Part shown: positions 4,028-64,000 of the stretch, piece by piece
How the letters are laid out: every line of letters starts with the position of its first letter
Numbering within the stretch: the stretch's first letter is position 1
Assembly: GCF_000970285.1 (NCBI RefSeq)
Contig: NZ_CP009516.1
Span: 4,505,036-4,569,035, forward strand
Source of the DNA: Methanosarcina horonobensis HB-1 = JCM 15518
GTDB lineage: Archaea > Halobacteriota > Methanosarcinia > Methanosarcinales > Methanosarcinaceae
Direction: 5' to 3'
Length of the DNA: 64,000 bases
Program-made: the position numbers and the translations under genes
The notes under the pieces: generated by a model
Told to the model about the DNA's origin: nothing
Database searches by the model: none
The model's input: the letters and a program-made list of their open reading frames with translations, nothing else

Positions 4028-5431
4028 TTACGGGGTCTGTTTTCTGAAGAGATTGCAGGAGTTTATCTTGACATCGAGCAGCTTCTCGATGTTCATTTTT
4101 GCGGCAATGCCTTTTGCAGCACCAGGAACTGAGGTGATCACGCCAATATCGAGCTCCTCACGGAGTTCGCGCATAACGTGCTCGTCTGCGAGGTCCCTGA
4201 TTTCTACATTGAGCTTCTTTGCCACGTACTGTTTTGCTTCTTTGATCTTCATGTTCTTTGAGAACTGCATTCTTGCTACAAGGTCGCCTGCTGCTCTCAT
4301 TCCTGTCATACCGGAAGCCATTATGTGAGAAATCGGCATACCCAGCGGGTCGCCGACCCCGATCTATATGCCGTCTACTCCGGCAACCTCGACCATTGCC
4401 TTGCTTGCCCTTGTAACGGCATCAATCGGAGGAGTCTCAAGCATGGGGATTCCGCCTACACCCATACCCATGTCAACGTGACAGGGAATTGGAGAAGCCT
4501 GGACAGCTGCCTTCATAAAGTTTACAGCGCGTGCAAGGTTCCACGGAGAAGTCTTGCTCGTGTTGGTGTTGCAGACTGGTCCGAAGACGTTTGCACCTGC
4601 TTTTGCAATTAAGGGAGCCTGCTGATGAGGCCAGAGCCCGGCAAGGGTCACGCCATCATACTGAAGGTTTCCGTGCATACCAAGTACGCATTCTCCAGCC
4701 ATTCCAGCTTCGATGTACATGTTAGGGAATTCCTTTCTGAGAGCTTCAATTGCATGGAGAGTACCATACATGTCAGCGTCACCTGCAGCTGCGGTCGTGT
4801 CGAAGTTGACACCGTCCGCACCCGAGGCAAAGATCTTCTGCATAACCCATACGGTGTCCCTTGTAAGGTGCTCTGCTGCATGTTCCATGGAGTCCCAGGC
4901 TTCCTGGATTTTGAAAGCCTTCATCAGGTCTCCGGGGTTTTCGAAAGGTCCGTCAGGAGTATAATACAATCCCATATTCGGCATTGCGCCGTAAAAGAGA
5001 GGGATAATCATATTCTGCTGGCAGACTTCCATTGCCTGGCACTCGTTTGCAACAACCGGCTTTACAGGTTTGTAACTGTAGTCGATGTGCCCGAGTTCCA
5101 TTGTGTCTGCACCAAACGCCCTTTCGTGCATCATGCAGCCTACAAGACGGCTTGAAGGAATTCCTACACCACTGTTGCCCTGATCACCGTCAAGCCTGAG
5201 AGTCCCTATGTCGTGAGTAACTGGCACTTCCATGCCGTGTTCCACACTGACCGTCTTTCCGGGCATCATAAGGATTTCTGCAAGCTTGTCGATTTCATCA
5301 GCGCTGAGATCAGGAATTTCTCCAAGGTCTGAGGCATTCGCCATTCCTGCCTCAAGTTCCTCCATGATCTTCTCTTTGGTAAGGAAGATCCTCTTCCCGT
5401 CTCCCATTCTCAAAGCATATTCGGTTGCCAT
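4028..5431 (-). CDS. mtbB: Dimethylamine:corrinoid methyltransferase (pyrrolysine protein)
   Basis: Moves a methyl group from dimethylamine to the corrinoid of MtbC, feeding methanogenesis. The frame is interrupted by one amber codon at 4364-4366 and continues for 111 codons to 4028. Read as pyrrolysine, the product is 467 residues, the known MtbB length, with Pyl at residue 356 directly after VAGVDGI and before IGVGDPLG. The start [10 protein letters not shown] has GGTG eight bases upstream; an in-frame ATG four codons earlier is less likely. It is the last gene of the methylamine operon, 57 bp after the small membrane protein gene. A caller that stops at TAG would split it into two genes. 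Confidence 0.97.
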
Positions 5432-8201: not shown

Positions 8202-9689
8202 TTACATGCCTCTGAAAGCTTTGTCAGCTCTGTCCACGACTGCTTTCATGTCCTTGAGGATGTCTGCATCGATTGGCTTTACTACGTGGTTCTTGAGAAC
8301 ATCCACGACTTTGTCGTGTGCAGCGGCTGCAAGATCCTTAGAGCCGGCTGCTGCCCAGTCTCCGAACATGCGCCTGTCTATGAGCATGGGGTCGGAGGGG
8401 TAGTTCACAAGCTGCCTGGTCTGTTTGAGGGCGAGGAAGTTGTTTCCGATACCTACTTTCTGGATGGACTCGACAGCAAGGGTTTCCTCATTAACAGGGA
8501 CTCCCTGCAGGGCTTTTTTGGTCATCTTGATGATGTCGTTGTCAATAACGAGCTGTTCCATAGAGAAGGTCATACCGAGCTCAAGCATCCCGGCGCCGTA
8601 CAGGGTGTTTGCACCTGCAAGGGCTGGCAGGAGACAGGTCATTGTCTTTTCGTGCCCTGCCTGGTTATCCGGGACCTTTGCATCAGACTAGGTGCCTGCC
8701 ACGAATGCGGGTAGGCCATAGAACTGGGCGAGCTTTGCGACGGATGCGCTGATCAGGCCGAGTTCGGGAGATCCAACGGGGGCAGTGCCCTTCTTGAGGT
8801 CAAAAGTTGTAGTAGAGCTTCCGTACCATACCTTGCTTCCAGGAACTGTGAGCTGGGCAAGGGTGATACCTGCGAGAACTTCTGCGTTGTGGGTTACAAG
8901 GGTTCCTGCAAGATAGACAGGAGAAGAACCGCCTGACATTGCCATACTCAGGACGTTTACAGGCATTCCGAAACGTGCACCTTTGATAATGACCTGGCAA
9001 GCATTGACACTGAGTTCAAGAGGGCTGGTCGGGCAGAGGAGCATTGAGAAGATTGGCTTCTTCCTTGCTTCTTCTTCATCGCCGCCGTAGTAGGCATTTA
9101 CGATGTCGCGGTAGTATTCGACGTTCTCGCCCACTGGGTCAATGTGGTGGAAGTGTTTTGCAGTGTTTGTAAGAGGGGTGAAGGTCTCGTGAACGTCCTG
9201 TGCACCCTGGCCTGCAATATCCCTTGCGGAAACAGGGAGAGAGAAGTAGTCGATGTTTTCTGCCCAGTCACAGAGCTTTGCAATGTCTGCAATGTCCTGT
9301 TCTACGGAATCAACGGTTACGTATTTTCCGTCCTGGTACTTGCACATCTTAACGCCAGTACCGAAGCAGGTCCAGTGAACCTTACCGCCGGCTTCCTGGA
9401 CAGTGTTGTGCTTTTTGTCGCGTCCCCAGAGGACAAACCTGGAGGGAGCAAGCTGGAGAGCTCTTCTTACAAGATATTCAGGGATTTTTACAACATGGGT
9501 CTGTTCGTTAACTTCACAGCCATTTTCTTTGAAGATCTGCCTTGCCTCGGGGTCAGAGACCTGGACACCGGGGTCCATCAGAACTTCCATTGTGGCGTAG
9601 TGAATTGCTTTGAGTTCGTCAGTAGTAAAAAGGTTTAATTCTACACCATTAAGTGCGTTAAATCCTGCAACTGCATTACATTTTGCCAT
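8202..9689 (-). CDS. mttB: Trimethylamine:corrinoid methyltransferase (pyrrolysine protein)
   Basis: Transfers a methyl group from trimethylamine to MttC. An amber codon at 8688-8690 interrupts the frame after 333 residues; the frame goes on for 161 more codons. With pyrrolysine at residue 334, in the context AFVAGT[12 protein letters not shown], the total is 495 residues, the known MttB size. ATG follows GGAGG at good spacing. It starts 26 bp after mtbC and is followed by mttC 30 bp later, so all three are one transcript. It is the family from which non-Pyl bacterial MttB homologues differ by lacking this residue. Confidence 0.97.
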
Positions 9690-21128: not shown

Positions 21129-21308
21129 ACGACGTTAACCGAATAAAGAAAGAGTTGAAAAAATCCAGAAACAAAAGATGTTCAGGAGAGAAGATGCCCA
21201 TATAAAAAATACAATCTTTCGATAAAATATATAGAAAGGATACTGATTATTGTTTATTAAGGGACCAAACGGGGTTCCACTTGAAATCTACCTTTATTTT
21301 CCTATAGA

Positions 21309-21316
21309 TTTATATA
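21309..21316 (+). promoter_or_regulatory. TATA box of a putative small RNA
   Basis: TTTATATA in gatttatataatataac. Its centre is about 25 bp before a perfect hairpin (21338-21360), which is where an archaeal transcript would begin. It is 350 bp from cbiD, which has its own closer TATA box. Confidence 0.5.
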
Positions 21317-21337
21317 ATATAACTGATATTTAGAGTA

Positions 21338-21530
21338 GATGTCAGGCTAGTACTGACATCACAGGCATCATTCCACAAGGCTATTTTTCACACACCAACC
21401 CCCCAAACCCCAACAAAGAATGGTCACCCCCCATTCAAACCCCCAAGAGAAATACCCCCCACTTCCAGAAAAACGAAAACTCCATTTTTGGAATGATGCC
21501 ATTCTTTTCTATTATTAGATTTTTACTATT
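21338..21530 (+). ncRNA. Candidate C-rich small RNA between mutL and cbiD
   Basis: The predicted transcript starts with an 8-bp hairpin, GATGTCAG/CTGACATC (21338-21345 with 21353-21360). An 11-bp long-range stem follows, GGCATCATTCC (21364-21374) with GGAATGATGCC (21490-21500). The enclosed 115 nt are poor in G and hold C runs at 21399-21404, 21408-21411, 21427-21432, 21440-21444 and 21455-21460. Inside, GAATGG (21418-21423) pairs with CCATTC (21431-21436) to show a TCACCCC loop. A T-rich stretch follows from 21501. No coding frame is plausible. Exposed C-rich loops are typical of small RNAs that pair with ribosome binding sites; this role is inference. Confidence 0.5.
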
Positions 21531-21635
21531 ATTGTTCCGTTATTTTACATATCGGCATATTTGGACACTAGCTGTGTTTGAGCTATGTTTATTGAGTCTC
21601 TCTTCTAATTCTTTTCCGATTTTCAGGTCAATACA

Positions 21636-21644
21636 TTTATAATA
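21636..21644 (+). promoter_or_regulatory. TATA box of cbiD, probably giving a leaderless mRNA
   Basis: TTTATAATA centred about 27 bp before the cbiD ATG at 21667. No Shine-Dalgarno sequence is seen before the ATG (gtattcttcc), which fits a transcript starting at or next to the start codon. Confidence 0.5.
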
Positions 21645-63677: not shown

Positions 63678-63987
63678 GATCAAACCTCCGTACTCAGAGC
63701 AGACTATTATGCGACAGAATATATGTAATATATACAATATATATCATACATACAATTTGTTTTATATAATATTTGAATTAAGTTGATAAACGTAATATCA
63801 GGAATAATAGATTCGCAGATATAGCAACAAAAAAGGGGAGCAAAAAGGAGGTTAAAAAAGTACCACAACAGACCTGGAAGACATGGAATCTATTGTTTTA
63901 TTGTAGAATTTTACTGGGAATCTTTGTCTTTTTATAGAGAAGTTTTTGATTTCGCCGTATCCGTTTCGCATAAAATGGGGGGAAAAG
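63678..63987. other. Intergenic region at the right edge
   Basis: TATATACAATATATAT at about 63727-63742 is a likely promoter for the decarboxylase gene on the minus strand. No gene seen until the ATG at 63988. Confidence 0.45.
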
Positions 63988-64000
63988 ATGAGTGCAAGGA
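63988..64000 (+). CDS. Possible start of a gene running off the window
   Basis: ATG at 63988 with a strong GGGGGG five to ten bases upstream, then AGT GCA AGG. Only four codons are visible, so nothing can be said of the product. The G6 run is notable as a perfect mate for C6 runs of the candidate small RNA at 21.4 kb. Confidence 0.4.

Follow-up and report, generated by a model that had tools for sequence, protein, structure and literature searches.

The interval between mutL and cbiD in the 64,000-nucleotide stretch of the Methanosarcina horonobensis HB-1 genome analysed here (the window) raises the question of whether a C-rich sequence enclosed by inverted repeats is an RNA gene in its own right and, if so, how its product would act. 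The original prediction described a regulatory RNA with a TATA box, an 8-bp hairpin, an 11-bp stem, five C-runs, an inner hairpin and a T-rich end, and direct reading together with a repeat search located each of these parts at its claimed position between the two genes, which are unrelated to each other. The features are as follows.

Positions 21308–21322, plus strand: TATA box ATTTATATAATATAA (start at about 21308), the promoter of the RNA; column conservation is 0.93 at 21304–21323.
Positions 21338–21512, plus strand: RNA gene of about 175 nt, its predicted start placed from the TATA spacing and its predicted end from the T-rich tail.
Positions 21338–21345 and 21353–21360, plus strand: 5′ hairpin GATGTCAG/CTGACATC, 8 bp with a loop of 7.
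Positions 21364–21374, plus strand: 5′ arm of the closing stem, GGCATCATTCC; 11 bp, perfect, pairing with 21490–21500.
Positions 21382–21403, plus strand: single-stranded core around CTATTTTTCACACACCAACCCC, near-invariant in most of 33 homologues (L011 and L027 deviate).
Positions 21400–21462, plus strand: C-run region in the big loop, with runs of 6, 4, 6, 5 and 6.
Positions 21418–21436, plus strand: inner hairpin GAATGG-TCACCCC-CCATTC, with double-sided changes at pairs 100–114 and 102–112.
Positions 21490–21500, plus strand: 3′ arm of the closing stem, GGAATGATGCC, pairing with 21364–21374.
Positions 21502–21516, plus strand: T-rich end, a probable archaeal terminator, with a CTTTTCTAT-like tail in most homologues.
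Positions 21636–21644, plus strand: separate TATA box of cbiD, outside the RNA; near-identical ACATTTATAATAAAAAACCTCC in 26 of 28 genomes compared.

The usual archaeal distance from TATA box to transcript start would place the start of the RNA at the 5′ hairpin, and the length of about 175 nt follows from this presumed start and the T-rich tail. In all 33 homologues, 30–35 nt separate the start of the TATA box from the TGNCAG of the 5′ hairpin, and the part from this hairpin through the closing stem measures 138–203 nt. Column conservation, as high over the TATA box as stated above, is 0.70–0.95 through the RNA and about 0.5–0.65 on both flanks, with a drop after 21503, at the T-rich end.

BLASTn with positions 21300–21530 as the query found a single-copy homologue in 30 of 31 Methanosarcina genomes, among them Methanosarcina spelaei MC-15 and Methanosarcina sp. 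DH2, KYL-1 and MSH10X1; the sole genome without a match is an incomplete assembly. A covariance model built from these 30 homologues (R1; the source genome, G000, measures 5.02 Mb) was run on 186 Methanosarcinales genomes, where it recovered the same 30 genomes and three of the four of a sister genus (g5), with no match in the other 153. The conservation of the stems in relatives, for which a covariance search had been suggested at the outset, therefore extends across the genus and into its sister. With filters off, R1 gave nothing convincing in the cbiD regions of other genera (best score, 17 bits), and in one such genome (L117) mutL almost directly abuts cbiD with no RNA between them. Because other genera such as this one have cbiD without the RNA, the gene appears to date from the common ancestor of Methanosarcina and the sister genus.

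The plus strand of 21337–21516 folds at −39.3 kcal/mol (z = −5.4; none of 200 shuffles as low). In the alignment of the 33 homologues, the four helices are paired in 97.1% of cells, and double-sided changes, which affect six pairs, occupy 40 cells compared with 13.6 in shuffles; compensatory changes are present in all three main helices. The 5′ hairpin, paired in 97.8% of cells, carries a compensatory UA/CG exchange in 8 sequences. The closing stem is paired in 99.7% of cells and is invariant within Methanosarcina except for G-U steps, and in two sister-genus genomes it shows a UA to CG double change (GGCACCATTCC/GGAATGGTGCC). In the inner hairpin, 16 sequences have CG and another 16 have UA at pair 100–114, and pair 102–112 also changes on both sides. 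Non-Watson–Crick cells in the three main helices number 41 G-U versus 4 A-C, and therefore the plus strand is the RNA strand; this bias and the weaker folding of the minus strand (z = −2.1) rule out an RNA read from the other strand. A small-protein gene was likewise rejected: no frame is kept, the loop tolerates indels of any length and there is no common start codon. Read instead as a DNA-level element (an inverted repeat or a minus-strand G-quadruplex) or as the mRNA of a small protein, the interval would account for the G-runs on the minus strand and for a 99-aa frame that overlaps the RNA in one genome (G008); however, other genomes do not retain that frame, the G-U bias fixes the plus strand as RNA and both the inner hairpin and the 5′ hairpin covary, which makes this explanation extremely improbable.

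In nearly all genomes cbiD lies downstream on the same strand, and the RNA could thus be imagined as its 5′ leader or a riboswitch-like element. Against this, cbiD has a separate, conserved promoter, with nearly the same CAATACATTTATAATAAAAAACCTCC preceding the gene in 26 of 28 genomes and a variant in two low-GC MAGs; the spacer between RNA and cbiD ranges from 101 to 706 nt, unconserved in sequence and with no stable distance; inserted ORFs part the two in one genome (G002); and other genera possess cbiD without the RNA. The separate promoter, the variable spacer and the inserted ORFs therefore show that the RNA is not the cbiD leader, as the original prediction had argued; the leader reading is largely refuted, and we consider it highly unlikely. 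The G002 insertion (L089 6521–7673, in the RNA orientation) consists of two frames that apparently represent an insertion element, and the RNA beside it is intact. In G021, other reading frames lie between mutL and the RNA.

With its own promoter, its conserved structure, its non-coding character and its separation from both neighbours, the locus is, on comparative sequence grounds, an intergenic archaeal sRNA gene; the same comparisons support its strand and helices. Rfam 15 contains no covariance model that matches 21250–21600 at the gathering score, and the best match at E ≤ 10 is frnS, whose 17 bits fall short of its cut-off of 60. Elsewhere in the window, on the minus strand, Rfam identifies the pyrrolysine insertion sequences PYLIS_2 and PYLIS_3 at 4267–4366 and 8591–8690 (mtbB, mttB). 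The RNA is described nowhere in the literature searched, a search outside which the 2009 M. mazei transcript lists and the sRNA41 paper lay; its transcript may already stand, unnamed, in the published M. mazei sRNA lists.

The 115-nt loop enclosed by the closing stem is rich in C and A and contains 8% G in the window copy. Two to six runs of at least four C occur in the loop of 28 of the 30 genus homologues; the other two, from low-GC MAGs (L029 and L030), have none, yet keep the stems and the core CACACACCAACCC. C-runs like the five of 4–6 C that had been predicted are thus a common rather than a universal trait of the RNA. In three homologues (L026, L027 and L028), a module CCCC(A)TTTCC with an A-rich spacer is present two or three times in the loop.

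The reading that we prefer, and hold with about even confidence, is that of an independent, trans-acting sRNA whose C-rich segments bind G-rich stretches near translation starts and lower translation. The RNA would start just at the 5′ hairpin, after which the 11-bp stem would close a mostly unpaired, A/C-rich loop displaying an invariant U-run and CACACACCAACCC, the C-runs and a small hairpin whose loop is rich in C. The displayed C-rich segments would bind G-rich stretches at or near the translation starts of several mRNAs, and this binding would lower their translation, as reported for three M. mazei sRNAs. Its transcription, its two ends, its action in trans and its base pairing, with the effect of the latter, are inferences. 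That the RNA is a regulator acting in trans is likely, because it has its own promoter, contains no frame, shows no stable link to the transcript of a gene and has the M. mazei sRNAs as a precedent. The varying length and number of the C-runs point to binding of low specificity more than to a fixed antisense interaction.

In M. mazei, sRNA162 uses a single-stranded linker to mask a ribosome site (PMC3510493), and masking of ribosome sites is also reported for sRNA154 and sRNA41 (PMC5867862). Like sRNA162/sRNA171, the window RNA is an intergenic Methanosarcina RNA, and there a length of 191 nt and stem-loops with an unpaired, ribosome-site-masking region are described (PMC3510493); unlike them, with their 39-nt linker between stem-loops, it has a C-rich loop and a long-range closing stem. 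By its description, sRNA41 is also similar, a Methanosarcina intergenic sRNA said to mask ribosome sites (PMC5867862). Among other methanogens, nine conserved sRNAs of Methanolobus psychrophilus are cold-induced (PMC5378194).

In searches for targets, the complement of the core, GGGTTGGTGTGTG, with at most two mismatches has 12 + 12 genomic matches on the two strands, one of which is the RNA gene itself, versus 7 + 10 for a reversed control, and none lies at a start codon among 20 loci inspected. Pairing of the C-runs with G-rich ribosome sites, as originally proposed, may still occur, but the target prediction that had been recommended gives it no clear support: core complements are near the chance level, none of those inspected is at a gene start and two homologues lack the C-runs. 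Antisense action on one conserved target through CACACACCAACCC was rejected on the same near-chance numbers and the lack of a match at a gene start. As for the specific candidate target, the site AATGGGGGG is present as described at 63974–63982, 5 nt upstream of the ATG at 63988, but just 4 of the 31 genus genomes have the gene. In all four carriers, a G-run of 5–7 stands just before the ATG (window 63974–63988, L286–L289).

Many intergenic sRNAs have been mapped in M. mazei, and sRNA41 acts on ribosome sites (PMC5867862), so the window RNA might be sRNA41 itself or another named member of the approximately 199 intergenic sRNAs in the list of 2009. A crude duplex scan of 58 gene starts, including those of two ACDS operons, did not, however, single out the ACDS ribosome sites (the cdhB start ranked 14–15, cdhE 17–18 and other ACDS genes lower), and we judge this identity very unlikely. 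Presence of the RNA as an unnamed candidate in the M. mazei list would leave the preferred reading, a trans-acting sRNA that binds mRNAs, unchanged.

One core-complement match led to a second C-rich closed-stem RNA (RNA2; G000:C1:849,005–849,100, corresponding to L070 1395–1570), which has a stem GTGAGCGGG/CCCGCTCAC and a loop TTTTTTCACATACCATACCCCCCACTCCCCATATGACCCCCCACTCCCC and is found in most genus genomes, 87–99% identical over most of its length. Its diverged relatives form a tandem pair on the minus strand of G000, at 1,488,366 and 1,487,768 (L184/L185, G000:C1 ~1,487,680–1,488,393; L168, L169 and L171 in relatives), one member of which carries repeated CCCCAACTATT units that differ in number between species. 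A model built from RNA2 and these diverged relatives (R2) matches 102 of 111 Methanosarcinaceae genomes in 12 of 14 genera, commonly two to five times per genome. A TATA-like box lies upstream in most of 20 regions fetched from distant R2 members, and some distant members have compensatory changes in the stem (TGCGCGGG/CCCGCGCA; TGATGAGCGG/CCGCTCATCA). About 40 nt before the TATA-like box of three second-class members (L235, L237 and L249) there is a common motif resembling GTGGCTCTTC, which could reflect orthology or a regulator site. Rfam has no match for this class. The complement of its ACCCCCACTCCCCA has 86/74 genomic matches versus 82/82 for the control, and no pattern at gene starts was apparent among those inspected.

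The two kinds of RNA share an architecture: each has its own TATA box, a closing stem (about 10 bp in the second class), a U-run followed by C-runs in the loop, and T-rich sequence after it. Just inside the closing stem, the window RNA and RNA2 have in common a U-run, CACAyACCA and C-runs, in a local similarity of the form TTTTTCACAyACCA..CCCCCC..CCCC, and the core at 21382–21403 is the part of the window RNA most similar to the second class; the CACAyACCA part is shared by RNA2 only, not by RNA3 or RNA4. Local alignment of the two loops scores 38, a value reached by 1 of 2,000 dinucleotide shuffles, a figure that is optimistic because RNA2 was first noticed in a search with part of the window RNA. 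Loop alignment with the window RNA is weak for RNA3 and not significant for RNA4 and RNA5. The second class differs in its GTGAGCGGG/CCCGCTCAC stem, its lack of a 5′ hairpin, its multiple copies and its spread over most genera, and R2 does not recognize the window RNA (best local scores of 7–8 bits; no match in the window). The RNA5 of G019 (L174 ~560–750) has a closing stem GGCATCTGAGAA/TTCTCAGATGCC and a loop CTTTTTTATAACCCCCCACTCCCC; its stem begins with GGCATC, as in the window RNA, its loop resembles that of RNA2, and it is possibly a bridge between the two. The shared motifs suggest that the window RNA may be homologous to the second class.

Bacterial CsrB/RsmZ decoys and multi-copy C-rich sRNAs such as LhrC carry repeated short single-stranded motifs on one RNA. 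The window RNA likewise displays such repeated motifs; in contrast to those of CsrB/RsmZ, they are C-rich instead of GGA, and the loop has no GGA repeats. Unlike both CsrB/RsmZ and LhrC, the RNA is archaeal and differently built. It might serve as a decoy or scaffold, its C-runs and U-run/CACACACCAACCC core titrating an RNA-binding protein in the CsrB/RsmZ manner with a different motif. The module repeated in L026, L027 and L028, the recurrence throughout the family of similar C-rich loops, at two to five unrelated loci in each genome, and the chance-level numbers of genomic complements of the core and second-class motifs speak for such a role, whereas the two homologues without C-runs speak against it, and we regard it as possible but doubtful. 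Binding to mRNA is put somewhat ahead of binding to protein. A broader proposal, which we consider improbable, is that several C-rich closed-stem RNAs in each Methanosarcinaceae cell, all with a U-run and C-run motif of one kind on display, titrate an archaeal C-rich-RNA-binding protein, as a counterpart of the Csr/Rsm system of which the window RNA would be a derived member.

The window thus holds a genus-wide RNA gene, outside Rfam, with a covariation-supported fold; the genus includes organisms that are genetically well tractable (M. acetivorans and M. mazei). Its follow-up revealed a second, family-wide, multi-copy class of C-rich RNAs, also outside Rfam, and the binding partner of the C-rich loops is a directly testable question on post-transcriptional control in methanogens.
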